From Parcubacteria group bacterium GW2011_GWA2_40_23 (lineage in GTDB: Bacteria > Patescibacteriota > Patescibacteriia > UBA11705 > JABHMO01), in the NCBI GenBank assembly GCA_000996245.1, contig LBYP01000007.1, forward strand, positions 12,302 to 56,003: a stretch of 43,702 bases of DNA. Direction: 5' to 3'. Made by a program: the position numbers and the translations under genes. The notes below the pieces were generated by a model, which worked only from the letters and a program-made list of their open reading frames with translations, was not told the DNA's origin and ran no database searches. This document shows, in pieces, positions 3,061-37,179 of this stretch (position 1 is its first letter; each line of letters starts with the position of its first letter).

Positions 3061-3061
3061 A

Positions 3062-7796: not shown

Positions 7797-8011
7797 AGAA
7801 TATTTAATAATTTCCCCCTCCAGGTTTGTTAAAATCTTCGTAGAGACTAAAAAAATAGCCCCTAAAAAACTTGCTTTGCAGCGAATTTCTTGTCTCTATT
7901 GTACCTCATTTTTAGGGGTCGTAGCAACTTCCTAAATTTGTAAATTTAAAAGGCTAAATTGACGTTAGATTATGTGTCGACAAACACTTTTTTTGAGATA
8001 AAATTTTTGAC

Positions 8012-8020
8012 TGTGGATAA
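8012..8020 (-). promoter_or_regulatory. Perfect DnaA-box consensus TTATCCACA
   Basis: tgtggataa on the plus strand, upstream of nrdD. Confidence 0.3.
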
Positions 8021-8091
8021 GTGAAAAAAGCAAATTCCTTAGCTATAATCAAGAAAGCAAAAAAGCAAGAAAACAACTGCTTTAGATTTGT

Positions 8092-8117
8092 CATAGAACA
8101 TAGATCATGGATCAAAA
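8092..8117 (+). repeat. 26-bp direct repeat copy 1 flanking the GC-rich receiver cassette
   Basis: CATAGAACATAGATCATGGATCAAAA; 25/26 identical to 9596-9621. Confidence 0.85.
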
Positions 8118-8188
8118 TTTACTAGTCCCTAGTCTCTAGTCACAAAGCAATAATTCGTAACTTCGATATAAAATGTGTTATTCGTAAC

Positions 8189-8224
8189 AAAAAAACACCG
8201 CACACAGAATGATCTGCATGCGGC
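8189..8224 (-). terminator. Intrinsic terminator of the receiver-like operon
   Basis: Minus strand: CCGCA-TG-CAGA...TCTG-TG-TGCGG stem followed by TGTTTTTTTG. Confidence 0.7.
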
Positions 8225-8235
8225 TTAAGTACTTC

Positions 8236-8628
8236 TCAGGCTTGTGCCACCTGCTGAAGGATCACCTCACCGATTTGCTCGTTCTTCTCGACGACCTGGA
8301 CGACGATTTTCAACATGCACCGTCGAAGAGCGTTCGCAACCTCAGCACCAGTTACCTTGGTCAAGTCGCACATGATGGTCGCAACCGGCAACTTCTCTTG
8401 CGCAACATCGAACTGTGCCACGAGTTGAAGCAAGACCTGGTCCGCAGTGTCTGCACCCAACTGCCAGTCGGTCACGATCACGTCGGGTTTGAAACCCTTG
8501 ATGATGAAACGTGCCGCATCGAGATCCTCGCATCCATGGACCTCGTTTCCTCCGCCACCCTGACCGAGGAAACGAACCAAAGCGCGGAGCTGTTCGAAGT
8601 CACTGCAAAAAACCAAGATTTTTTTCAT
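8236..8628 (-). CDS. Divergent response-regulator receiver-like protein (130 aa)
   Basis: MKKILVFCSDFEQLRALVRFLG...GFKPDVIVTDWQLG; beta3 Asp in VTDW; GC-rich; SD AGTAGGA 5' of the ATG. Confidence 0.65.
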   Translation of the reverse strand: MKKILVFCSDFEQLRALVRFLGQGGGGNEVHGCEDLDAARFIIKGFKPDVIVTDWQLGADTADQVLLQLVAQFDVAQEKLPVATIMCDLTKVTGAEVANALRRCMLKIVVQVVEKNEQIGEVILQQVAQA

Positions 8629-8641
8629 TCTTTTCCTACTT

Positions 8642-9068
8642 TCAGGCTTGTGCCTGTTGCTGAGCGAATTTGACCAGAGACGCCACGAGTGCCTCCTCGG
8701 GTTGCACGATGAACGTCACGTCGAACGATTTCAGAACCGACACGACGATCAGTCCCAACTCAGGCTCGGGTGTAGCGAAGATGGCGAGAGGCAGATTCTT
8801 GCCCTGCGATTGCACTCCACGCAAATGGAAGAGAACTTCACGCGACCAGGCATTAATCTGCCGCGCTTCACCACCAGGCACCGCGGATGATTCCACGCAA
8901 GCCGCAACTACGGCCACGGTAGGTTCCCACCCAATGACAGCAGTCAAGACTTCAGCAAAGAGAATAGCAGACCTTGCACGACACGTTGGGCGAGAGCTTC
9001 AGGCTCTTGACGAGCTTATAGAACCGCAACGGGAAAGGCGCAAAGAACAAGATTCTTACTTCTTTCAT
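8642..9068 (-). pseudogene. Receiver-like gene with apparent single-nucleotide frameshift between 8955 and ~9000
   Basis: Frame A (8952-9068): MKEVRILFFAPFPLRFYKLVKSLKLSPNVSCKV; frame B (8642-8947 and upstream): ..SAILFAEVLTAVIGWEPTVAVVAACVESS..; fused they match the length and layout of the flanking receiver-like proteins. Confidence 0.6.
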
Positions 9069-9080
9069 TGTCTCCTACCT

Positions 9081-9452
9081 TCAGGCTTGCGCCAAGCGCA
9101 GGATCGCGTTGGTAAAACCTGCTGCTTTATAGATACAGGTCGCACCCTGAAGTCCAGCTTCGTCATCGACCATTTTCCGATTCAGTCCGTTGAACGGCAG
9201 GAGCCAAGCGTACTTCACGGGAAATGTTGCACTCTGCTGCAACCGGAACTGCGTCGGAATCATGATCGCACCGATCCCGTCGAACATCCAGTCGATGACC
9301 ACGAGTGCCGGCGTTTCACGCTTCAGCGTAGCCATGGCCTCGTCGTAGGTCTCGGGCGCGAACACGGTGAAGGAAAACCCTTCCAAGGTCTCCTTGATCA
9401 TCCGACGAAGACCAGCTCCGTCTGTCAGAACCATGATGACACTGTTAACCAT
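9081..9452 (-). CDS. Divergent receiver-like protein; start likely at 9452 rather than 9491
   Basis: MVNSVIMVLTDGAGLRRMIKETLEGFSFTVFAPETYDEAMATLKRETPALVVIDWMFDG; beta3 Asp in VIDW. Confidence 0.6.
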   Translation of the reverse strand: MVNSVIMVLTDGAGLRRMIKETLEGFSFTVFAPETYDEAMATLKRETPALVVIDWMFDGIGAIMIPTQFRLQQSATFPVKYAWLLPFNGLNRKMVDDEAGLQGATCIYKAAGFTNAILRLAQA

Positions 9453-9481
9453 GACACACCTAGTATCTATTTCTTGGCTAG

Positions 9482-9510
9482 AGGTTAACACAGAAGCTTA
9501 GTTTTGTCAA
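9482..9510 (-). promoter_or_regulatory. Sigma70-type promoter for the receiver-like operon
   Basis: TTGACA - 17 bp - TAACCT on the minus strand. Confidence 0.5.
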
Positions 9511-13184: not shown

Positions 13185-14618
13185 CTATGGTTGTTGCGGT
13201 TTGATTAAACTAGCTAAGTCACCCGTGCAGTTTTCAACAGCCGTTAACCCAACCTCGAAACCCTTGGTCGGATCATATTTACATCTCATGGTTTTTCCGG
13301 CCCAAGTAGCATCTGAAATCTTAGTGAAACGAGCCGCATAAACGCAGTCTGTTCCTTCTTTGCCGCTGGCACTAACTTCGTAAGTTAAATTATCTGTTAG
13401 TTTAAAAATTCCCAACCCTGCTTCGCAAGCAGTAAATGAATCGTAAAAACAGGTTTTGCTACCACAAGTAAATTCACTGACTACTTTTGTATTATCAACA
13501 ACTTCTTTGACATTTAAAGATTGCATGATACTTGAAAAATCTATGGCCGGCGCAGCTTTTTCAATGGGAATGAACTCAAAGCCATTAACCATCATGGCAA
13601 AAAGACCAGGAAAACTAGCTTCTTCATTTAAACCAATATTGTAGTTTATAATGAAAACCTTATCAGTGCTGGCAACATAAGCCGTAAAACCATCAGGACT
13701 TTCCAAGACCATTACTTTTTTATAATTTTGATATTTCTTTAATTGTGTTGCAGTAACTGTTGGAGCTTTCTCCAAATACCAATCATCAAGGGTTTGTGAT
13801 GTCCCCTTAGTATCAACAAAAACGTTGACGAACTCATTTCCCTTAGAAGTGAACATGACTTCTGACGGGTCGTTTACATTAAGTGGACTAGCCAACCAAG
13901 TTTTTGGATATAATAATTTATAACCATAATTTGTATTCTCGTAAGAAGCTGCAAAAGCTGAATCATTTAAGCGGACACTACCTGGTTTTAACGGGTCATA
14001 AAAATTTTTCATTTCGTCACCATCGCGATAAGTGTCTTTATCAGTGTCATTAATATTCTGGTCGGTTCCAATAATAGCTTCTTCGGCATCAGTTAACCCA
14101 TCTTTGTCCTTATCCAAACTAGCCATAAGAGCTAAAGAAACCTCACTAAGTTTGCTCGGATCAAAATTTAGAACGTCAGTAGCTGGTTGGTCTGCTGGCA
14201 TGTCAACTGGAGGTGGGACATCTGTGTCTACCACTGCTGGTTGATCGGTAACAGCGGGCTGATCTACAACAACAGCTGGTTGTTCAACATTAACCACATT
14301 TTGATTATTAGTTGGTGTTTGATAACTAGCATAGAGTAAATAAGCAGAAACACCCACAACAATAACTAAGACTATAACAATAGCAATGTTTAAAAGTTTT
14401 TTTCTACCACCAGAAGCTGGGGCCATTTGGCCGGAAGATTGCATGGTTGGTTGTACAGCTTTAGCGATATTACCTGTTTTGCCACCAGTGTAATAATCCA
14501 TGGGCATGGTATGGATCTCTTCTGATCCAGTCGAAGGGGCTGCAGGTGCAGGCTGAGGTGGAGTTGCCGGTATGGCTGGCGCTGGTGTATTAGATTGTGG
14601 AGCTACATCGTCAAACAT
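13185..14618 (-). CDS. Membrane-anchored surface protein with TSP3/dockerin-like Ca-binding repeats (477 aa)
   Basis: TM helix LLNIAIVIVLVIVVGVSAYLLYA; DKDKDGLTDAEEAIIGTDQNINDTDKDTYRDGDE. Confidence 0.75.
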   Translation of the reverse strand: MFDDVAPQSNTPAPAIPATPPQPAPAAPSTGSEEIHTMPMDYYTGGKTGNIAKAVQPTMQSSGQMAPASGGRKKLLNIAIVIVLVIVVGVSAYLLYASYQTPTNNQNVVNVEQPAVVVDQPAVTDQPAVVDTDVPPPVDMPADQPATDVLNFDPSKLSEVSLALMASLDKDKDGLTDAEEAIIGTDQNINDTDKDTYRDGDEMKNFYDPLKPGSVRLNDSAFAASYENTNYGYKLLYPKTWLASPLNVNDPSEVMFTSKGNEFVNVFVDTKGTSQTLDDWYLEKAPTVTATQLKKYQNYKKVMVLESPDGFTAYVASTDKVFIINYNIGLNEEASFPGLFAMMVNGFEFIPIEKAAPAIDFSSIMQSLNVKEVVDNTKVVSEFTCGSKTCFYDSFTACEAGLGIFKLTDNLTYEVSASGKEGTDCVYAARFTKISDATWAGKTMRCKYDPTKGFEVGLTAVENCTGDLASLIKPQQP

Positions 14619-14629
14619 AGAATATTAGG

Positions 14630-15238
14630 TTATTGTTTTGTTTTTAAATTATTCAAGGCCTCATTGAAATTTAGTAACTGGCCAGCGCCCTTAGGATTAT
14701 AACCGCCCTTTACTTCTTCCCCATCCAAATAACCATCACCGTCTGTATCTGATGCTAAAGGATCGGTTAAAAATATTTTAACTTCATCATAATCTGAAAG
14801 ATCATCATTATCTGTATCAGCTTTGTTGGGATTGGTCTGCAAGGTTGTTTCTTCCTGGAGCGACAATCCATCGTTATCAGCGTCATCAATTGCTGGGACA
14901 TCAGTTTGAGTTTCGACTTCTGGGGTTATTATTTGCGGGACTATAACTTCTTCTTGTGTATCAGGATAAGGAACAACAGGTGTATCAATTGGTGTTTTTT
15001 GGAATAAACCAAATTGCTTAATCATGACGTAAATTACAATACTCAGTATAGCGACAATTAAAATTAAACCAACTATAAACCAAATCTTTTTTGTCTTTGT
15101 GCCAGCTTCAACAGTTAGTGGTTTTGTAGCCTCTAGCGCGGAATTACTATACAAAAGATTACTTCCCTGATTTTGATTTTTAGGAGTTTTATCAACTGAA
15201 GAAAAAATGTCTTCGATTTGATTGTCGGGTGTGGGCAT
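14630..15238 (-). CDS. Membrane-anchored protein with TSP3-like Ca-binding repeats (202 aa)
   Basis: TM helix IWFIVGLILIVAILSIVIYVMI; DADNDGLSLQEE..KADTDNDDLSDYDE..ASDTDGDGYLDGEE. Confidence 0.8.
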   Translation of the reverse strand: MPTPDNQIEDIFSSVDKTPKNQNQGSNLLYSNSALEATKPLTVEAGTKTKKIWFIVGLILIVAILSIVIYVMIKQFGLFQKTPIDTPVVPYPDTQEEVIVPQIITPEVETQTDVPAIDDADNDGLSLQEETTLQTNPNKADTDNDDLSDYDEVKIFLTDPLASDTDGDGYLDGEEVKGGYNPKGAGQLLNFNEALNNLKTKQ

Positions 15239-15239
15239 A

Positions 15240-18200
15240 TTAGTAGTTTTCTTCTAGGGTTACGTCCTGTGTTAATGGTGGCAAGGCAGCAATAACACTC
15301 ATTAAACTCTCCAACTTCGGTTTTATTGAATCAACAGTCCCCTGTAACCAAATTCCACGGTGCTTAGAGTTAACTTTATTGCTATACATACTATACAATT
15401 CATATAAGCACTGATCATCTCCCGCTGCTTCTGCTGCACACTTGGATAGGTCTGGTTCTGCTGTTAATTCACCGTCTTTTCTCACATAAATAAAGTGTAT
15501 TGGCATTTCATATGTATTAGCTGTCGTTGTTGAAGTTACTATTTTTTGATAGGCTAGATTCTCACTTCGGAAATAACCATCTTCCGCATCAGTTATAATA
15601 AAATATACAAGAGCCTTAAAATTATAACTTGAAGTCTCATATAAAGTTACAACATCATTTAAATACTCATTAATATGCCCAGGCATATTTGATGCAGCCA
15701 TGTAGGCATATGGGGAACTACAAATGTCTTCGTCCGAAGCTACACACATATTACCTGTTGAACATTCATTTGAAGCACACTCATTGTCAGTTGTACAAGC
15801 CTGGAAAGGACACTTTTTTTCATCACCACAAGCATATGTTGCATCACAACCGTTAGTACCTGCATTAACACATGCAAGCCAACCAGGCTTACAAGTTAGC
15901 CATTTTAAAAACTTGGCAGCATCATTGCTTGGCGTTAAAAACTTTTCAGACTGCAATCCTACGTCATCTCTAGAATTGCTTAATACATAGTAAGCCTTGT
16001 TACCAAAAACTTCATGTAAGCCTTTTATATTGGTTCCTGTTTCATGAACGCCGTCAATAATGGTTTTTATCATTATTTTATGAATGTATTCTGGATCATT
16101 TTTTTTATTCCCACCAGACATCGAAATACTACTATCAACAAAAAAAGCAAACAAGATATTTCCTTCACTATCGTCATTAGCTTCAGTACAACCCACAGTA
16201 TCTGGCGGTGTCCAAGTAGCAGAAGCACTTATACACGCTGCTTGAGTAGTGTGTACCGGCTTTGAGCAACAACCAGCAAAATCACAAGTGTTATCACCAT
16301 CATTATCAACACCATCGCTACATTGAGGTGGCCAAAACTCATCATTATCAAAAGCAGAGGTACAACTTGGATCTGCAGGCTTCCAATCGCGAGCATCGCA
16401 ATCAGCTTGTGTATCGATAGTTGCATTTGAACAACAACCGTCGACATCACAAGTACCGTCACTATCATTATCAGTATTATCTTTACACATTGACAAATAA
16501 TCTTCTGCAGGATCATCAGGACCGGTACAACCAGGATCATTTGGATAATCTGTTTTGCCATTTACATCATTATCAACACCATCACTGCAAGCTTTGGGAG
16601 CGGTTGGTGCAACAACCACCTCTGGTGGAGCAACTTGAAGTTGATCCCAGCCAGTGCCAGAAGATTCAACTACAGGAACATATCTATAATTTAATGTTGG
16701 AATTTCGTAGAAATATCTAATTCTAAATTGGCTTTGAGTTGCATCTGCACCATTAGCTTCATAGGTATAAGTAAAGTTTTTAATATTATCGGTTGCTGTT
16801 TTGCTCTTGTTGTAATAACTGTATAAATTAGCAAAAGTCAGGGTAGAGCTGTTATAACAAGCCTTAGAATCATAACCACCGGAGCTTGAGCAATCGATGC
16901 AAGCAACACCTGGAAGAATACATTGTTGAGTACTAGAACAAGCTAATATATTACCAGATGAATCAGCTCCACAATCAACCGTCTGAGTAGTAGAAGAGAT
17001 ACAGCCAGCGTCATCTTTTTTGCAGGCAACACCAGTGGCAGTAGTATATTTATAAGTCGGTGGAACATTATACAAAGCATTTATCGGATCAATTGGCATA
17101 TCCAGACCTAACTCTGTTTTAAAAGTAGTCTTCCAGGAATCCCAAACACTATTGGTATTATGGCGTTGCAAAGTACCGGCCTCTAATTGTGGTACTTTCC
17201 CACCATGTTGTGATTTATAAACATTGACATATTCCTGCATCAAAACAAAATCCTGCAAACGCTGCGTATCGCGAATAAGTTTAATTTTACTGATAGTTCC
17301 ACTATCGAGCTCATTCATGTTGAACTTTAAGAACTGAACAAGCTGACCAAAAATATTTTGAGTGGCGGGGTTAGCGCCTTGAGAATAACTCAAAAGATAA
17401 ATATTATTCCAAACATTAGAACCATTAATATTCGAAGCCGAAACATAGAGAGTGCGACCATCTTGGACACCAGCATAACAAAATTCACCAAAACTATCTG
17501 TCAAACAATCTGAGTTGATAATTGGCACGCTACTGGCTGGGTTTGGTACATTGCGCGCGTACCACAAACTTGGTGGCAAACCCTCCGGATTTTCATAAAT
17601 GCGTAATGAAATAGCATCGGGTGCATTATCATTAGTGGTTGCATAATCATTATCTGTTTTACGGACAAAGAAATATTGTGCAAACAAGGCTGGCTCTTCC
17701 CAACCATCTGTTGCTGAAGTACATTTTGGATCATGAGAATCGATTAAACCATTATTATCATCATCAATACCATTATTACATTGATTTTGTGTGTCCACAT
17801 TTAATTCCTGCCAACCAGAGTTATCGCCATAGAAAATTCCCTTAGATTTAGCGACATCAGTGATATTAATGTATTTAAATCTTAAAGGAACACCCCCATG
17901 ATCTTGAATACACTGTGAAGAAATACTACAAATACAATCTGTACTTGGCGTAGTACAGGCCTCCCCACTAGCAAGAGTACAAGAAGCAGAATAATCAGCG
18001 GTACAATTAACTGTTCCGGGAACAGTAGAATTAAAATCCCAAGCAGCTTTCAGCCCTGTTTCTGGATTTGTATTTATTTGTTCTGGCGTTTTTGCACCCG
18101 CCCAAACACGGAAATCATCCATATAACCACCAAATGAAACTAGAGGAACCTTTGTCTTACCTAAACCCCCAATAAAAAGTTTATCATAGTCAGCTCCGGC

Positions 18201-21200
18201 CTCATCTTTTTCGCTAATACAAACACAACCCGGATCATTCTTTGCGCAACTTGAACCATCAGACTTAATACAAGTATCTTGTCTTGGCCAAACAAACATA
18301 GGAGCAGTTTGATTCTCCAGTGTTTTGGCCCCGGTACAACTAGCAGCAGCTAGATCGCATTGCATTTTACCGTTAATGAAAAGCGCTGCGATTCCACTTC
18401 TATGGGATAAAAGTATTTGATTGAAACCATTATTCAGCAAACCATCGGCTGCCTCGACACCTTTATATATAGCCGTCTTCCCGGGATATTTGATTTCAAA
18501 GACAACTGAACGTTTAATATTTGCCACAGTACAAGCGCCACATTGCTCGCGCGTCTTGAGGCCGCTCATAACATCGCTCCAGCATGCTGGGTCAGCAGAG
18601 CACCAACTGCGCACCCCTAACTGGACATGCGCTTGATTAGGAACACTCTTTAGTCCATCAGGATCTGCGGATGTTGTTAAATTTTTATAAAATATACGGA
18701 CATAGCGGTCTTGCGGTAAATCATCATTATAAACCCAAGTAGAAATAGTCCAACCCTTTGTATAATCATTCATTATAGGGTTCAAATCTTCATGAGCTTC
18801 TACATAATCATAATTACGATCGAAGTAAATTCCGAAACGTGGGTTTGGGTTAACTTCTGTAAAAGCACCGGTCATTAAACCAACAAGTGGTAAATCATCG
18901 GATAAATCTTTATCTTTGCCAAAATCACGACAATAGAACAAGCCAGCGTTGAATTCTTTTTCAACTAAATAACTTGGCATCAATTGTCCATTATTAGTCA
19001 GCTCAAGTTTAAGATCTAACTTTTTGTGTGTTATAGCTTCGCCCGAATTATATTGATATTCTGGTGGGATAGATCTATTAAAACTATTGTAAACATCACC
19101 AAACCAAGGGTTATCGCAAATAAATACTTTAATATTGCCGACCCCAGTGTATGTGGCACCGGTAGTTGACTCTTCTCCGGGGCTATACGAACAATAACAA
19201 TTTGCAGTACCATAAGTGCAACTAGCACCACTGCCGTTAGTACAAACTTGACCAAGAGCGTCTTCACTAATAGTCGCTGTTGCTTTTATTTGTCCTTGAC
19301 CATTCTTTGTTTGAGTCACAACATCCGCTGCAGTTCCGCTTGGATTAACAATTTGAGCCAGTGCAGTGTCAGTTGACTCCCAATTCCAATCCCAATTGTA
19401 AACACCAGGCATTGGGAAAATTTCATTAATGCCACTCTTAGCGTAAGCAGTGTAGGCAAATGACTGGCCCGATTTCATGACAAACAAATCGGCTGGTGAA
19501 ACAACGACATTGTCGAGACGGCAAGCTTCAGCACCGGTGGTAAATTCAATGATGGCTGGATTCGGCGTTATGGTTCTATTACATTTATTTTTTAAATTCT
19601 TTAAAACAATCCCATATCTTGTGTCCGGCAATAATAATTCTTTAGGGATAGCGCGCATTTCGATTCCACTAGTTGTTTGTTTAAGCTCCATAGTCATTTC
19701 TGGTCCTACACAAAACTTTAGGGGATCAGCCAAACCAACTTTAAATAATAACGAACGAACAAATTCCTTTGCTTTTTCATAACCATTAACAAACCAATTT
19801 ATTGTCGTGTTTTGAGTTAAATATCCTGGTGCAGGATTACTTATTTCGCCTCTGACACAAGTAGCGGCACGGTAATAAAAGAAAAGGCTATTATTCTCTT
19901 TGCGACAATTTGATCCTGGAATTGGTTGATTACATAATTCCATTGTTGCCTGAGTCACTCCTGCACAAACACAAATATCTTCGCCCTTTACCTCTGTAAG
20001 TGGTGTTGATATGACCAGTGCGATATTACGACAAACATCTTGCGCATTATTAGCTGGAATGGTTGTGGGGTTTAAGGCAGTTCCCGCCTCACACGTTGTA
20101 TTCACTGCTTCATTATAAACAGATTTTGGTACACGCAAAGTAATACCTGTATCACCGCTTTTTGGGGTAGTCTCGCCCTCAATTTTTTCTACAGTAGCAG
20201 CAATGATTTTTTTCGTTAAACTGTACGAAGTTTTTGGTGCAACATCTGGGTTAAGACGTAAAACAACTTGGAATACAGATGAAGTGGCTGAATGTTTTTC
20301 TGTGTTAATAGTTGCTTTTTGGTATGGGCTACCAGTGTTACATTTGCTCATATCAGATTCAACCGTGCCACACATACACTTGCCTGATGTTGTGTTAACT
20401 GTACAAGTAATAGCGGATGCCACTTCGCAAGCAGCATCTTCCCCTTCTTCCTTAGTCCCATTACCGCACTGTGAACCATATTTAATATCTGAACCTAAAT
20501 TTGTACATTTGGTAGTGCAACCTTCTGAGAAATCACAAACACAATTATCCGTTCCTCGATCACAAGAAACTTTTATTTTGCCATTTGCCCCGCAAGTATT
20601 TGCTTCGGCGCAAACGCATTTACCTGACTGGACTGTACACCCAGGGATTGCAAGAACTCCAGTACATTTCACTTTGTCAGATAGGATTAAATCTTCTCCG
20701 CAGAAACAATTTTGCGCGGCGCCCATCAACGAACACCCTGCAACTGGTAAAATTCCAGCGCATTGAACCATGTTCGCTGTCTGAACTGGGCAAGCTTCTT
20801 CTTTAAAACATGCCGTTTTATCGCAGGCTTTTAATCCCAAACCTGGAATAGTTTCAGTAAGATTCCCATTACCACAGCAAAGTGTGTCTGTTGGATTAAC
20901 GCACAAAGGATAACCAGTAACTAAACATTTATCATTACATAAAGCTTTATTAGTAGCCGGATCAGAAACCAAAGGATCGCATTTTTCGCCAGGGTCAACT
21001 ACATGATTACCACAAATTGACAGGCCAGCAGTATATTTAATTTGAGAACCTTCCTTTAAACAAGTGTTACTGATGCCGTCTCCAGGTTTATTATTAGAAT
21101 CATCAGAATCTTCTCCGGCTTCTTTAATGCCATTGCCACAAACATAACCAACAGCGGTACCAGCATTCAAACAACCAGGAGTACACGCTTTACTCTTAGA

Positions 21201-24200
21201 GACTAAGGCACAAGGTGGATTCGCTTGAGTGGCGGCTGCGGGGTCGCAAGAAACACCATTTTTATCTTTATATTCAGCAGCAAAATCACACTCTTCTTGA
21301 CCATTAACCCTGCCATTACCACAACAAACAGAGTCTTCGCTAATTAACTCCGCAACAGTACAAGGACTAAAATTATTTAATAAACAACTAGTATCGTTGC
21401 AAGCTACTCCCTCATCAATGACTTCAACGCCTGCCTCATTCAACACCATTGTCTTACCGGCAGTTTCTTCTGCCTGCGAAAAATCACATTCTTCACCAAC
21501 ACCAATTTTACCATCACCGCAAACAGCGCGATAAGTTATGCTTCCCTTTAAAAGACAATTGCCTGTACATTTATTATCACCAGAAGCGGCCGCATTATAA
21601 ACCTTATTTGTTATCTCAGCCAAAGGAGCGCCATCATTTACATTGCTCGTTGGAAAATAGGAATTAGGGAATACAGTGTCATCCGTATTGTCACCAGTAA
21701 CATCATTATCACTATCCTTTGTGCTCCAAGTCCAAGGATAATGCAGTGGGTTCAAAATTTGGCCAGTAATATTGCATTTATCCGGTGCGCTCGTTGGTTC
21801 AACTGAATAGCTGACTACTTCACCCGGAGTAGCGGCTTCATAATTGGCTGGCACAACATTAACAGAATCAATAACGCATTGATTTTGATCATTTTTCGTT
21901 TTGAATACCCAACTAAAACTATTCAATCCGGTTGCGCCGCCAGCATCATGATAATTCAATCCAGTTAAATGCACGCCACTAATACTCTCGAGCGCATTGG
22001 AAATAACAACGCGATGATATTTGTTGAATAATAAATTTGTATTTGGCTTTAAATCTATTTTTAAAATATTATCCCCAGTTGAAGGCGCTATCGCAGGATT
22101 ATAAATATATGTAACTGTGTCAATTTCGGCGGTTGATGGAGTAACAACAGTACACTCCTCTGTTTCACAAGTATAAATTTTAATGTTTTCTTTAACAGGG
22201 GTCTTCATCTTAGTATTAAAAGTCACACCAAGCTGCGCATTAATACAAGCTTCCTTACAATTTGGATAAAATGAAGTTACTCGTGGTTCACTAAAGTTAA
22301 TTTCTAGCTCTCCTGTTTTGTGGTAAACAACAGTGGCTTTCGCGACAACAGCATCAGCAGAGATAATGATCGGGGTGCTTGTTTCTAAATCACCATCAAC
22401 CCGACATTCGCAGCCTTCTTCAAACTGATTGACACAAGCACTGTCATCGGCTTTTTTACAATTTTCTAATTTACTATCATTAATCGCATAGACACCAATA
22501 TCATTTCGTTTAGGGTCAACTGTACAATATAATGCCGGGCCAGTTTTACAACCATAACCTATTTTTTCAGCTCTCTCTTCAGTTGCAGGAACAGTCCAAA
22601 CCCAGGGCTTATCCTCCACGTTAATTTGCTGACAACCAGACATTCCAGAAACTAAATATTTTTGAATTTGTTGAACAGATTTAATAATGCCTTTCGAAGG
22701 AGTCATCAAAAACTTATCAGGTTCGCAATTCGCAGCCTTTGTTTTGAAAAACCAGCTATAATTTTCTGTCATTGCTTTGCCTGAAGGTGAAGCGACGCCA
22801 CTGGTCCCGCCCAAAATTTCTACTTGATACCAGGTATCCGTTTTAAGGGTAGCATCAATTCCTTGTTGCAAGAAACTGCCAATTCCAGGATAGACTTTCA
22901 GTGTGTCGTACAAAGAAAAGGAAGTCAGCATATTGGTAGAATCAGCACTTTCCGGTTGTGGCCAGATATCAAGTGGATTGATCTCTGAAAAAGTAATGCT
23001 ATCCCACTCACTCGCTGTATATGTTGCTAAATTACATTCCTCATCTCTACATTTACGAAGAGTGATCTTGCCATCTAAGGCAGTCAGATTAAGTGTCATG
23101 TTGAAAGTAGCGGAAATCAAACCATTTGGACATGCCAATTCATCACTTTTTGCTGGTGAGGGCGATTGAGTATAACCAGTACCAGTAGCTGGAACCAAGC
23201 AGGTACGTTCAAGAACCGCAGGAATTTTTGGAATTACACCAGTACTCATAACCCAAGCATATTCTGAATTATGCGACTGAACAGTAGTTACGCAAACATC
23301 TTGTTTTGTCTGACCTGCAGTGGCATCTTTACAAACACCATCGCCACAACAAAACTGACTAGCCAAACAAGAAGTATCAGTACAAATACCAAGTTTAAAC
23401 TGAACTGAATTACTTTCTACAGACCGGTCTGCGCTATGCACCAGAACGCCACCAGTCATAGCATCAGCAGGAACTTTAGCATTCCCAATTTGTTTATCGA
23501 CCCAGGTCAGGTCTGTTTTATCTACCAAGGCGCGGAGATCTGCTGTATCAACATCTTTTTTATCAAACGAAACATTATAAATACTTTTGTCAGTACCAAA
23601 ATTTTCTCCGACAATCGTAACCACGGTATTCATTGGTCCATTATTTGGTGAAATACTACAAATACCCGGACCAGGAGCATTTGTATTAACGATAAAATTT
23701 TTATTGTTACTTGGTAAGCTTTGATTGGTTATTATTTTAACCCAATAATTTCCAGGGGTCATTGCGGTGGTACTCCCTGGCAAAGTCTCTGGAACTTTAA
23801 CTTTAACCTCAGTATCAGACCAACTAGCTGCACCACAAGCTAATAGTCCAATAAATGATGGCTCAAGTTCTTCAGTCGTTGGATTTCTAGCTTCCATAAA
23901 ACCACCATGTCCATCGCTTTGTAATGGCGAAAAAATAACTTGCCCCGTCTTGTCTCCAAAATTAGTGCCTAGAACAGAAATTATCTGATTCAAAGGTCCG
24001 GCTCCGGAACAAATGCAAGCATCTGTCCCCTTGGTACAAATCTCATGTTTAGTGCAAATCTTTACCGGTTCAGCTGTTTTACAACTACAATTTGATTCAC
24101 CCTCCAAACATTTTGAGCCTGCCAATTTAAGACAAATCCTAAAAGCGTCACCAGTACAAACGCAATCTTCTGACGACCCCTCAATACAAGTTGCTTTCGC

Positions 24201-26882
24201 GCTTAAAGTACATGTTTTTACCGGTTCATTTTCCATGCACGTGCAGCCATTCGTTCCTTCATCTTCTTTGTCGCAAGTTGTTGCGGCTGTTGCAGTACAA
24301 ATTCTTGGCGTAATTTCTGTAATTGTAGGGAAAGAACTTGATTCTATTAAATTAAAAGATAAAGGATTGCTCATGACATTATAGCAATTGCAACCAATTG
24401 AATCTTTAACACAATCTTCAAGACAAGATCCTGATCCAGCTACACAATCAGCTTTTGTTTTTTGGCAACGCTCCCCTTTGCCAACTACAACATTATAAAG
24501 ACCTTTGTTTATTTGAGGTACGCGCACATTGGTGATTGAAGTGTCAGACCAAGCACCCATAACAGCGGCTGAGAAATCACCAAAATATATATTATCAGAA
24601 GTACCTCTTGAACCAAATTTCTCGCCGCCTAAAACAGTATAAGCACCTGGAGACCCTTCCTCCGGAGTCATTGAGCACAAACCTGGATATTGTAAATTTA
24701 AATTTTTTGAAAAATCACCAATCCAACCAAGATCATTGGTAGTATCATCAAATTGATAGGTTTTAGTGACCGAATCTAAGCTGTTGGTAACAACTTTTAT
24801 GGGGCCATCTTCAATGCCCGCCGGAACCTTAACTATAATTTGATTGTCTTTCCAAGCATCGGCAGGATCACAAGGCACCTCTGCTGGTAAGGTCATGGTA
24901 CCGGCAGCACCAGTGAAGAACACGCCACTTACTCCCGCAGTGTAATCAGAAAATCCACTACCATATATTGTAATAAAATTACCATCTCCACCTTCTTTCG
25001 GATTTACATTATTTATCACAGGCACAAACACGCAAACGCCATCTGCACAATAACCCCCATTACAATCACCATCAACCCTACAAACACCATCGTCACAAGC
25101 ACCGCAAACTGGGTTGTAAGCCGGATCGGTGCAAGCAAGCATGACGCCTGTGGCATCGCAACAAAAATCCGGTCTAACAATAACATCCATTTTCTTAGTA
25201 CCATGGTTACCATCAATATCATCAGCCTGGAGCATTAAACTATGTTCTTCGAAATTTTTTGATCCCAAAGGATAATCATTAACGGCCCAAGGGATTGATG
25301 AGCTAAATATTTCAGGAGATAATTCATCTGTTTGCGTCACAGAACTAATTGCTTGATCCGTCGCATCTCCCTTAGGATCAACGTACAAAGAAACAACACT
25401 AACTGCGACATCATCTTCAGCTGTAAATGGAATCATTCTGTCATCCTCAGCACCAGATGGGAACTGACAAACATTTTTATTAAAAGCATCAAAATTAACC
25501 GTTGGTGGAGTGACATCACAAATATCACCAGTAGTAAATTTAAAAGTGCAAGGATGAGTGGTCTCGCAAAACAGTTCATCTCCATTAGCTGCCTTTAAAC
25601 CAATTTTATCAGTGGCACTAGCTTTATTTTTTAAACTGACAGTATATTCTGTATCTTTCTTTAAAGCATAAGCACCAGGATTTAATGGATCACACACACC
25701 CGCGGGGACAAATTCAACTAAACGACCACCATTCCAAAATTTAAAAGTTCCATTAACCGTGTCTACCCCGGGGAAATCAGATATAAATCTGAGACGAACA
25801 TAATTCATTTTTAAACAAGTTGTCCCCTGGCGTGCCCACTTAATAAAAACTTTATCACCACCAAGACAAGCCGGGTCTAAATTAAGTGAATTTTTACCAT
25901 CTGGTGGCAACCATTTTTCTTTCATTAAAATTAAATTATCCTCGCTTTTTCCACAAGAAATATTTACCAAAGAATCTGCTCCTGACTCGGTAGTTTGAAA
26001 GTCTAAATAACTGTTAGCTGCTGTTTCTGTGCCGTTATCGCTAACATCAAACTCAATTAACATTGGGGTGCCACCCAAATGAGCTTCATCACACATTACC
26101 CAATCGGCCGTATAGTTATGGTCCATTTCTTTAATTGCTGTCAGTATTTCTTCCCCATGTCCATTTGGTTCTGTAACTGTTTTGGGTTTATCAACAATCG
26201 TGTGTGACACTGTTCCTGCACTGGTTGTAATTTGGAGATTCGATAAATTTACGGTTGCTTCACTAACAGCTTGATTAAAAGAAATACGTGGGTGAACATT
26301 TATAATTTTTTGAGGTGCTGGTGGTGGGCTGAATTGATCTGTTTTTAATAAACCATAGCCGCTAATATCAAAACCAGATTTTTCGCTATAATAGGTTGCA
26401 GAATAGCAACCTTTGTCAGATGGGAAGTCGACAGAACCATCGCCATCATTATCAATACCATCAGCACATTGATAGGTATAGGTCGCATCTGTCAGAGCCC
26501 CAGTAATTCTACTCATGACAAAGGCAACGATAGAATAGGATAAAAGTATAATTACCAAACCAATAAGAGCGTTAGTTATATATTTTTTGGCATCAGCAAC
26601 TTTTTCCTGTTCCCCACCAGAAGTCATGTATAAAAATCCTCCATAGAGGACTAAACAAACGGCAACAATACCCAAAAAGCCTAAAATTACTTTTATAATT
26701 TTGCCAATCAAGCTCTTCAAGTCTGCATTGGCTAAACCAGCCCCACCAGCTACTGTCTCTAATCCGCCCTCAACACTATTATTATCAGCTGCTAAAACCG
26801 AAGCAATGTCATAAAAACAAAAACTGACAACTGCCAAAACAATGCCGATGAAAACTAAATTACGAAAGACTTTTTTTGACAT
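15240..26882 (-). CDS. Giant multidomain surface protein (3,880 aa): T4SS-pilin-like N-terminus, Ig-like/IPT-TIG, Cys-rich CGNGxxExGExCD, LamG-like, MopE-like and C-terminal VWA regions
   Basis: Continuous ORF; N-term two TM with LYGGFLYMTSGGEQEKVADAKKYITNALIGLVIILLSYSIVAFV; IPT: NVNPKEGGDGNFITIYGSGFS; CGDGKIGVGEECDF; DGVDNDGDNTCD; VWA: ILFAFFVDSSISMSGG. Confidence 0.93.
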   Translation of the reverse strand: MSKKVFRNLVFIGIVLAVVSFCFYDIASVLAADNNSVEGGLETVAGGAGLANADLKSLIGKIIKVILGFLGIVAVCLVLYGGFLYMTSGGEQEKVADAKKYITNALIGLVIILLSYSIVAFVMSRITGALTDATYTYQCADGIDNDGDGSVDFPSDKGCYSATYYSEKSGFDISGYGLLKTDQFSPPPAPQKIINVHPRISFNQAVSEATVNLSNLQITTSAGTVSHTIVDKPKTVTEPNGHGEEILTAIKEMDHNYTADWVMCDEAHLGGTPMLIEFDVSDNGTETAANSYLDFQTTESGADSLVNISCGKSEDNLILMKEKWLPPDGKNSLNLDPACLGGDKVFIKWARQGTTCLKMNYVRLRFISDFPGVDTVNGTFKFWNGGRLVEFVPAGVCDPLNPGAYALKKDTEYTVSLKNKASATDKIGLKAANGDELFCETTHPCTFKFTTGDICDVTPPTVNFDAFNKNVCQFPSGAEDDRMIPFTAEDDVAVSVVSLYVDPKGDATDQAISSVTQTDELSPEIFSSSIPWAVNDYPLGSKNFEEHSLMLQADDIDGNHGTKKMDVIVRPDFCCDATGVMLACTDPAYNPVCGACDDGVCRVDGDCNGGYCADGVCVFVPVINNVNPKEGGDGNFITIYGSGFSDYTAGVSGVFFTGAAGTMTLPAEVPCDPADAWKDNQIIVKVPAGIEDGPIKVVTNSLDSVTKTYQFDDTTNDLGWIGDFSKNLNLQYPGLCSMTPEEGSPGAYTVLGGEKFGSRGTSDNIYFGDFSAAVMGAWSDTSITNVRVPQINKGLYNVVVGKGERCQKTKADCVAGSGSCLEDCVKDSIGCNCYNVMSNPLSFNLIESSSFPTITEITPRICTATAATTCDKEDEGTNGCTCMENEPVKTCTLSAKATCIEGSSEDCVCTGDAFRICLKLAGSKCLEGESNCSCKTAEPVKICTKHEICTKGTDACICSGAGPLNQIISVLGTNFGDKTGQVIFSPLQSDGHGGFMEARNPTTEELEPSFIGLLACGAASWSDTEVKVKVPETLPGSTTAMTPGNYWVKIITNQSLPSNNKNFIVNTNAPGPGICSISPNNGPMNTVVTIVGENFGTDKSIYNVSFDKKDVDTADLRALVDKTDLTWVDKQIGNAKVPADAMTGGVLVHSADRSVESNSVQFKLGICTDTSCLASQFCCGDGVCKDATAGQTKQDVCVTTVQSHNSEYAWVMSTGVIPKIPAVLERTCLVPATGTGYTQSPSPAKSDELACPNGLISATFNMTLNLTALDGKITLRKCRDEECNLATYTASEWDSITFSEINPLDIWPQPESADSTNMLTSFSLYDTLKVYPGIGSFLQQGIDATLKTDTWYQVEILGGTSGVASPSGKAMTENYSWFFKTKAANCEPDKFLMTPSKGIIKSVQQIQKYLVSGMSGCQQINVEDKPWVWTVPATEERAEKIGYGCKTGPALYCTVDPKRNDIGVYAINDSKLENCKKADDSACVNQFEEGCECRVDGDLETSTPIIISADAVVAKATVVYHKTGELEINFSEPRVTSFYPNCKEACINAQLGVTFNTKMKTPVKENIKIYTCETEECTVVTPSTAEIDTVTYIYNPAIAPSTGDNILKIDLKPNTNLLFNKYHRVVISNALESISGVHLTGLNYHDAGGATGLNSFSWVFKTKNDQNQCVIDSVNVVPANYEAATPGEVVSYSVEPTSAPDKCNITGQILNPLHYPWTWSTKDSDNDVTGDNTDDTVFPNSYFPTSNVNDGAPLAEITNKVYNAAASGDNKCTGNCLLKGSITYRAVCGDGKIGVGEECDFSQAEETAGKTMVLNEAGVEVIDEGVACNDTSCLLNNFSPCTVAELISEDSVCCGNGRVNGQEECDFAAEYKDKNGVSCDPAAATQANPPCALVSKSKACTPGCLNAGTAVGYVCGNGIKEAGEDSDDSNNKPGDGISNTCLKEGSQIKYTAGLSICGNHVVDPGEKCDPLVSDPATNKALCNDKCLVTGYPLCVNPTDTLCCGNGNLTETIPGLGLKACDKTACFKEEACPVQTANMVQCAGILPVAGCSLMGAAQNCFCGEDLILSDKVKCTGVLAIPGCTVQSGKCVCAEANTCGANGKIKVSCDRGTDNCVCDFSEGCTTKCTNLGSDIKYGSQCGNGTKEEGEDAACEVASAITCTVNTTSGKCMCGTVESDMSKCNTGSPYQKATINTEKHSATSSVFQVVLRLNPDVAPKTSYSLTKKIIAATVEKIEGETTPKSGDTGITLRVPKSVYNEAVNTTCEAGTALNPTTIPANNAQDVCRNIALVISTPLTEVKGEDICVCAGVTQATMELCNQPIPGSNCRKENNSLFFYYRAATCVRGEISNPAPGYLTQNTTINWFVNGYEKAKEFVRSLLFKVGLADPLKFCVGPEMTMELKQTTSGIEMRAIPKELLLPDTRYGIVLKNLKNKCNRTITPNPAIIEFTTGAEACRLDNVVVSPADLFVMKSGQSFAYTAYAKSGINEIFPMPGVYNWDWNWESTDTALAQIVNPSGTAADVVTQTKNGQGQIKATATISEDALGQVCTNGSGASCTYGTANCYCSYSPGEESTTGATYTGVGNIKVFICDNPWFGDVYNSFNRSIPPEYQYNSGEAITHKKLDLKLELTNNGQLMPSYLVEKEFNAGLFYCRDFGKDKDLSDDLPLVGLMTGAFTEVNPNPRFGIYFDRNYDYVEAHEDLNPIMNDYTKGWTISTWVYNDDLPQDRYVRIFYKNLTTSADPDGLKSVPNQAHVQLGVRSWCSADPACWSDVMSGLKTREQCGACTVANIKRSVVFEIKYPGKTAIYKGVEAADGLLNNGFNQILLSHRSGIAALFINGKMQCDLAAASCTGAKTLENQTAPMFVWPRQDTCIKSDGSSCAKNDPGCVCISEKDEAGADYDKLFIGGLGKTKVPLVSFGGYMDDFRVWAGAKTPEQINTNPETGLKAAWDFNSTVPGTVNCTADYSASCTLASGEACTTPSTDCICSISSQCIQDHGGVPLRFKYINITDVAKSKGIFYGDNSGWQELNVDTQNQCNNGIDDDNNGLIDSHDPKCTSATDGWEEPALFAQYFFVRKTDNDYATTNDNAPDAISLRIYENPEGLPPSLWYARNVPNPASSVPIINSDCLTDSFGEFCYAGVQDGRTLYVSASNINGSNVWNNIYLLSYSQGANPATQNIFGQLVQFLKFNMNELDSGTISKIKLIRDTQRLQDFVLMQEYVNVYKSQHGGKVPQLEAGTLQRHNTNSVWDSWKTTFKTELGLDMPIDPINALYNVPPTYKYTTATGVACKKDDAGCISSTTQTVDCGADSSGNILACSSTQQCILPGVACIDCSSSGGYDSKACYNSSTLTFANLYSYYNKSKTATDNIKNFTYTYEANGADATQSQFRIRYFYEIPTLNYRYVPVVESSGTGWDQLQVAPPEVVVAPTAPKACSDGVDNDVNGKTDYPNDPGCTGPDDPAEDYLSMCKDNTDNDSDGTCDVDGCCSNATIDTQADCDARDWKPADPSCTSAFDNDEFWPPQCSDGVDNDGDNTCDFAGCCSKPVHTTQAACISASATWTPPDTVGCTEANDDSEGNILFAFFVDSSISMSGGNKKNDPEYIHKIMIKTIIDGVHETGTNIKGLHEVFGNKAYYVLSNSRDDVGLQSEKFLTPSNDAAKFLKWLTCKPGWLACVNAGTNGCDATYACGDEKKCPFQACTTDNECASNECSTGNMCVASDEDICSSPYAYMAASNMPGHINEYLNDVVTLYETSSYNFKALVYFIITDAEDGYFRSENLAYQKIVTSTTTANTYEMPIHFIYVRKDGELTAEPDLSKCAAEAAGDDQCLYELYSMYSNKVNSKHRGIWLQGTVDSIKPKLESLMSVIAALPPLTQDVTLEENY

Positions 26883-26905: not shown

Positions 26906-29101
26906 TTATTCTTCAGCACCCCAAGGCTCTGCACATTCTCCGCCAAGAGGGTCGAGTGTCGGCTTGTGTGTAAGAACATTAGGGCAACAAGACTTCCCGT
27001 ATTCCTTATCTCCAATATCATTACAATCTGTTGCGGTTGATTCGGGAATCGCTGTTGGAGAAGTTAATTCATAAGCTGAGTTCTCAGCTGGAACCACATT
27101 TCTACTTGGTGTAAAACAATTTTGGCGCATATCGCGCAACTGAGCTTTAATGACAGGCATATATAATGGCCCTTCTTCGCCTTCATTAACTTCTGTAAAT
27201 GGACCATGAGACATATTAACAATATTCATGGAAGGGATAGGTAGCTGTGTTACTGGATCAACGTCTACCGCCTCTATATTTGGATCGAACCAATTAGCAA
27301 AACCAGCGCCAGACAAGAAAATTTGCGTATCCACTGAAGCTGCATCTAAATCTTTATTAAAAATAACTTTTATGGGCACAGATTTATCAACGCTTTGTGC
27401 GTTATTTCTTGGTAATAATTCCTGAATCGCGGGCGGTGCCAAATCAATAGCATGACCAACACCAAAGGACCATTCAAAATCATCAGCTGGTTGACCATCG
27501 GCCTTGCCATCTCCACTACCATCCAAAGAATTTCCAGCCAAATCGACAATGCCGGTTCCTATTTCAGCTATTTCAGCTGTGATCTTGGCTGCTTTTAATA
27601 AACCGTTTAAATCTTTATCTGCTGGCAAGCAAAATACTTTTTCTCCACAACTATTTTCTGTCACACCTTCACATTCCATAGTTGAAAGAAACTGAATCGT
27701 ACGATATTGATTAATCCCCGTAATCCAATTACCAGGTACGTGTGACGTTCCAGCACAACCAGTAGCCTTAGTACCATCAGCAATCAAAAGCTGAGCTTCA
27801 TTGCTGGTGTTATTAGCGACACACCCAGTTTGATCGGTTGAAAATAATGGTAAAACCGGTTCATTAAAATTAGCCACCACTATTTGATTACGGAAAACTT
27901 TAGCGATTGGGCAATTAAAATCTTTTTCTGGATCACAAAGACTTCCATCGATTGCGTCTGTATCAATACCAACCTGATCTTTAGGAATAGTTAAGGTTAC
28001 CTTGGGCGGAGTTAAATCTACAAAAGTCCCAGTGGTAAAACGCCAGCTATATCCACTAAGACCACTGGTAGGCACAGAAAAAACACTGGTACCTACTGGT
28101 TCTAGTTTTCTGATACCAGCACCAGCTGGTGGTGGTCCAACAAGATGGACTATATAAGATACATTTTCTTCAGAACTACCCAAATAATCGTCTGTTGTCT
28201 TGCCATTTCCAAACGGATTAAAAACAACCGTACGACGGTCTTGAGTTATCATAACAAATCCCGGAACAACATCATTAATATTTGCTGGATCAGCAATAGT
28301 GGCATCGACACAATCGCTTGGTGACTTGAGCGGAGTTGTAGTGGGCCAACCAGCCATCTTATCGCAACGATAAGTTTTAAAAGCATTTTTATCAACTGGT
28401 CCGCAAACAGAGGCGGTCTCCGGACAATCACCTGTTTTACATTTAGCTAAGGCATCAGGACAAACATCATAACCAATAGTTGTCCCGGTCGTAACATCGG
28501 GCGCAGTTAAATCTATAAAAGAAGTTGGATCAATTGGTAATTTAAAAGTTACCACAATCATAGTGTTGCGTGGCACTTCTGCTTGCTCTGGATAAGGCGA
28601 ATGCCCTGAAAGAATTTCCCCAAAAGAGCTGCCAGATAAATTATATCCAAGGCCTTTTGGAATAGTGGAAGTTATGTTGTAGGTTCCCTCCCCGATGTTT
28701 TCCTTCAAGGCATTAAAAACAAAGGCAACTATTGAATAAGACAAAAAGATTATTATTAAACCGATAACTGCATTGATGATCCAAGCTTTAGCTGTTTTGG
28801 TTTTTTCAGGATCCCCACCAGAAGTCATGTAAAGATAACCAGCGTAAAGGACAATGCATAAAAATATGATGCCTAATACATCTAAGAAAATCTTGATAAT
28901 CTTTCCCACTGTTTGGAGCAAATCTGCTTTTTGCAATGGCGTTTGAGCTGCAACTGTATCTAAATTGCTAATAATATCACTTTGAGTTGTGGCAGCATAT
29001 GAAACTGTAAATGGCGTAAATAAAATAACTGCCAACGTAAATATTAAACAACTGGCAGTTATCCAAAAAATAAACTGATTTTGATTTTTTTTGACAAGCA
29101 T
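26906..29101 (-). CDS. Surface protein with T4SS-pilin-like N-terminus and Ig-like (Big_5-type) repeats (731 aa)
   Basis: LYAGYLYMTSGGDPEKTKTAKAWIINAVIGLIIIFLSYSIVAFV, paralogous to the N-terminus of the 3,880-aa protein. Confidence 0.85.
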   Translation of the reverse strand: MLVKKNQNQFIFWITASCLIFTLAVILFTPFTVSYAATTQSDIISNLDTVAAQTPLQKADLLQTVGKIIKIFLDVLGIIFLCIVLYAGYLYMTSGGDPEKTKTAKAWIINAVIGLIIIFLSYSIVAFVFNALKENIGEGTYNITSTIPKGLGYNLSGSSFGEILSGHSPYPEQAEVPRNTMIVVTFKLPIDPTSFIDLTAPDVTTGTTIGYDVCPDALAKCKTGDCPETASVCGPVDKNAFKTYRCDKMAGWPTTTPLKSPSDCVDATIADPANINDVVPGFVMITQDRRTVVFNPFGNGKTTDDYLGSSEENVSYIVHLVGPPPAGAGIRKLEPVGTSVFSVPTSGLSGYSWRFTTGTFVDLTPPKVTLTIPKDQVGIDTDAIDGSLCDPEKDFNCPIAKVFRNQIVVANFNEPVLPLFSTDQTGCVANNTSNEAQLLIADGTKATGCAGTSHVPGNWITGINQYRTIQFLSTMECEGVTENSCGEKVFCLPADKDLNGLLKAAKITAEIAEIGTGIVDLAGNSLDGSGDGKADGQPADDFEWSFGVGHAIDLAPPAIQELLPRNNAQSVDKSVPIKVIFNKDLDAASVDTQIFLSGAGFANWFDPNIEAVDVDPVTQLPIPSMNIVNMSHGPFTEVNEGEEGPLYMPVIKAQLRDMRQNCFTPSRNVVPAENSAYELTSPTAIPESTATDCNDIGDKEYGKSCCPNVLTHKPTLDPLGGECAEPWGAEE

Positions 29102-35897: not shown

Positions 35898-36443
35898 ATG
35901 AAGCTCTTTGTTGGTCTAGGAAATCCAGAAAAGAAATATGAAGGCACACGCCACAACATTGGCTGGGCCATGATTGATTTTTTATATAATGAATGGCTCA
36001 AAAAAGAAAATTTTGATGATTGGGGCAAGAATAAAAAGTTTAATTCAGAATTTACGGTTGGGACGATCAATGGTGAAAAGATTATTCTGGCTAAACCACT
36101 CACCTTCATGAATAATTCCGGCACAGCAGTACAAGCAATCGTCAATTACTTTAAAATACCAACAAAAGATGTTTATGTTTTCCAAGATGAATTAGATTTG
36201 AAATGTGGTGATTATAAAATTCAGTTTAATAAGTCGAGTGCTGGGCATAATGGCGTGGCGTCGATAATCGAGCGACTCGGAACTCAAGAATTCACGCGCA
36301 TCCGAATCGGAATTGGCAAGGAAGATAAGCAGAAGCAAGGCAATGGTGCGGACTTTGTACTCAATAAATTTAATTTATTGGAACGGATGAAGTTGAAGGA
36401 TGTGAAGAAGAGGATTTTGGAAGAGATGAGGAAATTGTTGTAA
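35898..36443 (+). CDS. pth: Peptidyl-tRNA hydrolase
   Basis: MKLFVGLGNPEKKYEGTRHNIGWAMID, LAKPLTFMNNSG, SSAGHNGVASI. Confidence 0.96.
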   Translation: MKLFVGLGNPEKKYEGTRHNIGWAMIDFLYNEWLKKENFDDWGKNKKFNSEFTVGTINGEKIILAKPLTFMNNSGTAVQAIVNYFKIPTKDVYVFQDELDLKCGDYKIQFNKSSAGHNGVASIIERLGTQEFTRIRIGIGKEDKQKQGNGADFVLNKFNLLERMKLKDVKKRILEEMRKLL

Positions 36444-36709
36444 GTGTTGTAGATGTTGTATCGCTTCGCTTGTTGTAAATGTTAATGTGAATGAAAATCG
36501 GCTTAAGGGTCGGTTTTTTGTTAAATCAGCTTACCCATGATAGCAGTTCAAGATAATTAAAATATGTGGGATTGCTTCCCTGTACCAGAAAGTATTCTCT
36601 TTCGGTGCAGGGTAAACGGGGCTACCCAGATTGCCCTCGCCTGCCGGCAGGCAGGCAATGACGTTTGGGATATGATAAAGAGATTGCCACGTCGTTCCTC
36701 CTCGCAACG

Positions 36710-36742
36710 AAAAGCCGACGCACCTAGGAGAGGTGCGCCGGC
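36710..36742 (-). terminator. Strong intrinsic terminator after the Tyr-rich lipoprotein gene
   Basis: Minus strand: GCCGGCGCACCT-CTCCT-AGGTGCGTCGGC-TTTTCG; 12-bp stem with one G.U. Confidence 0.8.
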
Positions 36743-36761
36743 GTCGAAGACTTCGTCGGGG

Positions 36762-37049
36762 TTACCGACGATGCGACCGTGCTGGTCGCGAGGGAGCCAC
36801 GTGCTGATGCACGTGTCGGCGATTGCCGTGGGAGTAGACCGAGGAAGACTGGTAGTGCCGGGTCGGAGTGGCCCGGTAGGTCGAACCGTAGTTGCGCGAC
36901 GGCGCGTAGTAGTACGGGGTCGAGTAGACGACCCGGGGACGCGCGTAGTAGTAGCTGTCGTCCCGCACCACGCCGATCCCGATCGAGCCGTAGCAACCAC
37001 CGAGCAACATAGTCAGGACGAACAGGATCGCGAAGCGATAGCGCTTCAT
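36762..37049 (-). CDS. Tyr/Arg-rich predicted lipoprotein (95 aa) on a GC-rich island
   Basis: MKRYRFAILFVLTMLLGGCYGSIGIGVVRDDSYYYARPRVVYSTPYYY...; lipobox LGGC; SD TGGAGG 5' of the ATG at 37049. Confidence 0.65.
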   Translation of the reverse strand: MKRYRFAILFVLTMLLGGCYGSIGIGVVRDDSYYYARPRVVYSTPYYYAPSRNYGSTYRATPTRHYQSSSVYSHGNRRHVHQHVAPSRPARSHRR

Positions 37050-37179
37050 TGAAGCCTCCAACGTTGTTGATCGATACCATAATGCTTACCAGAAAGAATA
37101 CTCCGACAGTAGAGGAGGGGCCACTGTGCGTTTTTACTTACTGATAAGCATGATGGTAAGGACCACTTGTTAAGGATGC

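Follow-up and report, generated by a model that had tools for sequence, protein, structure and literature searches.

A giant gene with a pilin head

The window, a stretch of 43,702 nt from a Parcubacteria group genome, carries at 15240–26882 a single uninterrupted ORF, as the earlier note had it, with an ATG start, no internal stop codon and a predicted product of 3,880 aa that contains 188 cysteines (4.8%). The giant, its domains and its three neighbors described below are all encoded on the minus strand. The longest ORF in any overlapping frame has only 187 aa, so the length of the giant ORF is not a matter of chance, and no tandem DNA repeat was found within the gene. Hydropathy analysis revealed three hydrophobic segments only, the first of which (residues 3–33) lies in a putative signal segment (residues 1–33; 26784–26882) and is followed by two more at residues 55–90 and 100–130. 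None was detected in the 3,750 residues after residue 130, so that, given export of the N-terminus, the rest of the giant would be extracellular. This agrees with the previous description of the protein as membrane-tethered and exposed.

The N-terminus had also been likened to the T4SS_pilin family, and Pfam bears this out, with PF18895 matching residues 56–121 at 31.3 bits (cut-off 26.6). The T4SS_pilin/VirB2-like core (residues 49–130; 26493–26738) consists of two hydrophobic helices joined by a short basic loop (GGEQEKVADAKK), and no match to an N_methyl or class III prepilin leader was found in the giant with Pfam. In an alignment of 17 giants, the core shows 52% mean identity to the 16 relatives with 5% gaps, the maximum over all segments (about 20–40% elsewhere), and a small stand-alone pilin encoded in the same genome is 49% identical to it. 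Conservation and likeness of this degree exceed what a generic anchor would require, and they are the chief reason to read the head as one that still works as a pilin and not as an anchor only. The departure is in size, the giant having 3,880 aa and its partner 731 aa, against 126–156 aa for the small stand-alone pilins of the genome. A tree of pilin heads had 114 columns, too few to tell whether the giant heads arose once.

Directly upstream, with its stop codon 23 bases ahead of the ATG of the giant, is the gene for a 731-aa pilin-headed partner (26906–29101) with matches to T4SS_pilin (PF18895, 35.4 bits) and Big_5 (35.1 bits). Downstream there are genes for two single-pass membrane proteins, one of 202 aa with TSP3 calcium-binding repeats (14630–15238; PF18884, 48.7 bits) and a conserved position, and one of 477 aa with a TSP3 repeat and a hint of a PsbP-like domain in Pfam (13185–14618). 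The TSP3 repeats of the neighbor are similar to those of CglD, the TSP3/VWA gliding adhesin of myxobacteria, but the score is 26.1 bits against a cut-off of 400 bits, so the likeness is at the level of repeats and the neighbor is not a CglD member.

Stalk, domain X and tip

Beyond the head, a first MopE-like CxDGxDNDxDG repeat (residues 139–162; 26397–26468; NCBIfam and alignment) precedes an Ig-like, Big_5-type domain with an adjoining domain (residues 371–620; 25023–25772) that are collinear in the relatives. The IPT/TIG domains noted previously were confirmed as an array at residues 621–1165 (23388–25022), where PF01833 matches several stretches at 50.6 bits, and TIG was found in 16 of 17 giants. 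Further Ig-like (Big_5-type) domains are seen at residues 1241–1670 (21873–23162) from Pfam, collinearity and alignment; Big_5 is present in 15 of 17 giants, and scores 20.9 bits in the window giant, below the cut-off of 23.6. The CGNGxxExGExCD disulfide repeats at residues 1791–2150 (20433–21512), also reported earlier, match myxo_disulf_rpt (TIGR02232) of NCBIfam at 23.6 bits (cut-off 20.8), and DUF4215 occurs in 9 of 17 giants. A LamG-like (concanavalin-like) stretch had been claimed as well, and is located at residues 2690–2960 (18003–18815). It stands as a likeness in the window giant, where Laminin_G_3 (PF13385) gives 24.0 bits, under the cut-off of 27.6, and is above the cut-off in the sister giant L030 (31.1 bits). 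A second set of MopE-like repeats was aligned at residues 3432–3565 (16188–16589), and acid_disulf_rpt of NCBIfam matches three stretches of the giant at 40.4 bits (cut-off 41). Mean identity in the 17-giant alignment is 31–39% for the TIG domains and 23–33% for the Ig-like ones. Of the long filament that had been proposed, an elongated stalk built of Ig/TIG-type domains is the likely part, and a filament by itself would be a further step.

Between the TIG domains is a lineage-specific, cysteine-rich run of CxnCxnCxC inserts (residues 860–955; 24018–24305) that the 16 relatives lack in the alignment (99% gap). The motif C-x(4-9)-C-x(3-10)-C-x-C occurs thirteen times in the giant, some of the copies being in this run, and 0–7 times in the relatives. 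Copies are also found at residues 813, 1475, 2041–2184, 2547, 2871 and 2968, where they sit in loops of conserved domains, and the motif looks like a disulfide-knot insert that is spreading.

Residues 3061–3401 (16680–17702) form a class-marker region, here termed domain X, with a PsbP-like half followed by a half that resembles type IV pilins and GspG. The PsbP-like half has 39% mean identity in the 17-giant alignment, and in several genomes it has weak matches (E 1e-8 to 1e-4) to the membrane protein whose gene is the second one downstream of the giant. An AlphaFold model of domain X was of medium quality (pLDDT 68.9, pTM 0.71); a Foldseek search with it returned no PDB match at E<=0.001, and the weak matches included folds of the PsbP/DcrB type, which covered the first half only. 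Sequence searches of the PDB with the whole giant, the tip or domain X gave nothing meaningful. Within the second half, profile matches outline a type IV pilin-like module without a head (RDTQRLQDF... DPINA, residues ~3191–3300; 16983–17312). It is called pilin-like because its matches are small prepilins bearing N_methyl: the domain-X profile matched small proteins at E-values of 4e-8 to 3e-11, and all four of the small prepilin-like proteins scanned had N_methyl above cut-off, one of them T2SSG as well. The N-terminal hydrophobic assembly helix is absent from the module, there being nothing hydrophobic after residue 130, and on these matches the latter part of domain X can be described as a type IV-pilin/GspG-like module lacking the helix.

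Counted at E<=1e-10, domain X was detected in 160 of the 191 genomes sampled from the class and in 148 of the 166 good ones, nearly always once. A sample of the whole phylum, at the same threshold, gave matches in 16 of 18 genomes of the class and none among the 222 from other classes. Seven outside genomes gave weak matches (1e-6 to 1e-8) confined to model positions ~115–240. Six of these were short proteins (frames of 147–312 aa) with typical prepilin leaders at their start; the seventh (locus L111, G256:C3, 3–2426) has 807 aa and contains two headless stretches that resemble type IV pilins, and headless pilin modules may thus be used in another class too. Two giants (G022 and G034) do not have domain X and it is instead carried elsewhere by separate frames of ~1,000 aa (G022:C3:119684-120472 and G034:C22:14463-15203), which suggests that domain X can act in trans. 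In G017, a second giant-like ORF follows the first (L066, G017:C6, 4719–17501), and three copies of domain X lie in a span of about 7 kb (G017:C6:68083-75310).

The C-terminal tip (residues 3569–3880; 15243–16178) is VWA-like at the level of motifs. A DxSxS motif (DSSISMS) lies at residue ~3583, near position 16,136, and the MIDAS motifs DSSIS and ITDAED of the window giant have counterparts (DNSSS and ITDAKD) in the giant of G001. The two tips share 32% identity, and in both of them domain X is followed by MopE-like repeats and a VWA-like stretch of 310 residues. Of the VWA domain announced in the earlier note, these motifs and their conservation in G001 stand, whereas Pfam VWA and VWA_2 gave no match at E<1 in the window giant, nor at E<=0.01 with the C-terminal 586 aa alone. 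With hhalign, only 17 columns of the tip, at the MIDAS, were aligned to VWA, the profile being in register on DxSxS only, and the score was 25 for the pair alignment and 18.5 for the window sequence alone (other segments of the giant reached up to 17). A single-sequence AlphaFold model of the tip had a mean pLDDT of 33.5. A scan of genome contigs detected no named relatives of the tip, and a class-wide profile search found it in the window giant and G001 only (2 of 286 genomes). Most relatives in the 17-giant alignment lack the VWA-like part, and many giants of other lineages stop right after domain X, others adding several hundred to 1,500 residues. In G010 and G019 the giant bears at its C-terminus a VWA domain above the Pfam cut-off, and such matches also lie on long frames in G132 and G309 in which domain X is present as well, so that the ligand-binding tip suggested previously is backed by Pfam in other giants and by motifs in the window giant. 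Kazal and fn3 occur once each among the giants. The family pattern is one of a conserved head and stalk and a tip that varies between lineages.

A class-wide family and the T4SS genes of the genome

When the first 661 residues served as the query, pilin-headed relatives turned up in all 36 of the 36 genomes, most of which have long frames of 1,500–3,900 aa with a pilin-headed frame of 550–860 aa just upstream. The class sampled is presumably GTDB class ABY1, and among the members reached by way of domain X are some labelled Kerfeldbacteria and Buchananbacteria. Relatives' loci were fetched (24 further and 17 named ones), and the gene order lepB-hisS-rpsU-yqeY-[partner]-[giant]-[TSP3 protein 1]-[TSP3 protein 2]-ybeY-dgkA-ftsA-ftsZ was the same almost everywhere, with nrdD added in closer relatives. 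Complete giants of the first locus set (n=21) have 1,931–3,880 aa (median 2,835) and partners 549–853 aa, and the BLASTP matches of the window giant to each relative keep the same order over the whole length. In G001 contig breaks split the giant: contig 8 ends with the initial 1,517 residues, and the final 1,781 lie at the end of contig 7, where ftsA-ftsZ are found beyond the C-terminal part. Two members of the Kerfeldbacteria type (L082 and L084) have a giant with no recognized upstream partner. This class-wide conservation and gene order, together with the partner and the headless pilin-like module, are the most informative additions to the earlier note. In other classes, from which domain X was not recovered, there are pilin-bearing frames of 845–1,644 aa (G057:C1:505966, G041:C86:11220, G062:C17:36216 and G055:C13), and fusions to pilins may be a wider theme in Patescibacteria.

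The genome itself is a 37-contig draft of 1.22 Mb (99.8% complete). Contig 3 carries seven small T4SS pilin genes in tandem (L024, 12521–15572; 126–156 aa), and a separate T4SS locus comprises genes for a large polytopic protein, PrgI (30.5 bits), a TrsD-sized protein and a VirB4-type ATPase (PF19044, 99.6 bits), followed by comF, the last assigned by reading the sequence. A Pfam search of the genome for TrbL/VirB6 gave no match; a 977-aa polytopic protein is encoded within the T4SS locus, and VirB6 is often too divergent (PMC12102498). The array and the locus agree with what has been reported for class ABY1 (PMC12102498). Neither is adjacent to the giant and partner genes, virB4 being on contig 4, the pilin array apart on contig 3 and the giant on contig 7.

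Proposed role and comparison with known systems

To our knowledge, no mechanism of host recognition has been described for most Patescibacteria, nor any adhesin that serves their T4SS. The giant is a concrete candidate for a host-binding protein, and probably a tool for gripping other cells; we infer surface display, pilus incorporation, adhesion and the tip's ligand alike. We give roughly an even chance to its being a modular VirB2-type pilin that brings a long stalk and a variable tip to a T4SS pilus for cell contact. The giant would be exported through Sec and anchored in the membrane through its pilin hairpin, as a T4SS pilin subunit made up of signal segment, two membrane helices and basic loop, with the C-terminus facing outward. 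To that C-terminus would be attached a stalk of ~3,700 residues of TIG/Ig, CGNG, lectin-like and pilin-like domains, stabilized by disulfides and calcium, and ending in a lineage-variable tip (MopE repeats and the VWA-like domain in the window giant). With its partner, the giant would be built as a rare subunit, at tip or base, into a VirB2-like pilus or collar by a VirB4-driven T4SS, and would act as a long-reach adhesin by which host-dependent cells recognize a partner cell and take hold of it. Presentation on a VirB2-type pilus, proposed because the core is conserved like that of a working subunit, would be a more specific idea than a filament by itself. More tentatively, the main host-contact organelle of the class might be a T4SS pilus whose rare subunits bear stalks of 200–500 kDa with exchangeable tips, the variable C-terminus of a single core gene setting the host range. 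We know of no VirB2-type pilus of a Patescibacterium that has been imaged.

A precedent for such an architecture is found in the type IV pili of Streptococcus sanguinis, with the modular minor pilins PilB (VWA) and PilC (lectin), and fusing a VWA or lectin module to a pilin is a well-documented route to a tip adhesin of these pili (PMC8179133). The giant family likewise joins a pilin module to large ligand-binding modules (VWA and LamG) that a filament could present, and the architectures of giant and partner both fit a functional module grafted on a pilin. PilB and PilC differ in having an N_methyl/class III leader and about 50 kDa, against the VirB2-like head, Sec-type leader and roughly 200–500 kDa of the giants. 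VirB2-like pilin arrays have been described in Patescibacteria and are essential in Southlakia (PMC12102498, PMC12857230); they belong to the same family as the giant's head (PF18895), and the present genome also has an array, PrgI and VirB4. The described pilins are, however, small and stand-alone, and neither an adhesin nor pilin-headed giants are reported in PMC12102498. PrgB-type adhesins, surface adhesins that serve a monoderm T4SS, would have the same role as that proposed for the giant, and were looked for in Patescibacteria but not found (PMC12102498). Highly expressed T4SS-pilin proteins are noted in PMC10936435. No description of pilin-headed giants was met in the freely accessible journal literature searched, and the family is apparently undescribed so far. 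The T4SS-type head, the size, the conservation throughout the class and the fixed module of four genes seem new, the principle of modular pilins being already known.

The pilin head could instead be a membrane anchor only, the giant being an ordinary surface adhesin or fiber without any pilus. A hairpin that crosses the membrane twice and leaves both ends outside would be an adequate anchor, virB4 and the pilin array lie far from the gene, and Vampirococcus and Absconditicoccaceae are known to have giant surface proteins of 1,400–4,200 aa that carry adhesion domains (PMC8080830, PMC13059738), although no pilin head, class-wide locus or domain X has been reported for those. An anchor would not, however, account well for an 82-residue pilin core that surpasses every other segment of the 3,880-aa giant in conservation and is close to stand-alone pilins, nor for the adjoining partner with the same head, and we consider this reading rather unlikely. 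It is quite improbable that the protein is an envelope scaffold or S-layer-like component of growth or division, and not an adhesin, with a functional reason for its place beside ybeY-dgkA-ftsA-ftsZ: the gene order is kept throughout the class with one copy per genome, and the neighbors are calcium-binding TSP3 proteins, but small genomes often keep gene order without shared function, and the C-terminal third is variable and holds ligand-binding domains (VWA, LamG, Kazal and fn3). Misassembly or a chance fusion of separate genes, raised in the earlier note and conceivable in a draft of 37 contigs, was rejected and is excluded in practice, because independent genomes carry giants collinear along the whole length (G002/L055 over residues 3–3403, G001/L030 over 2368–3800) and the fetched loci hold 21 complete giants.

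If the giant is indeed a modular VirB2-type pilin, the principle of modular pilins extends from type IV pili to T4SS pili. A single-copy giant kept in about 89% of the good genomes of a class with genomes of ~1 Mb must pay its way, and the split between conserved pilin and stalk and variable tip could predict host range. Domain X provides a marker for the class.

The same genome encodes another giant, of 3,386 aa, from which the pilin head is absent (L026, G000:C6, 8082–18242); it has an N-terminus that by eye is NHL-like, and MopE-like repeats. Within the window, the G+C content rises to 45–50% at 36000–37000 and 8000–9500, compared with ~39% elsewhere. The former stretch contains a lipoprotein-like ORF (36762–37061) and the latter two ORFs with weak likeness to response regulators (8236–8628 and 9081–9491), and both stretches are possibly recent arrivals.
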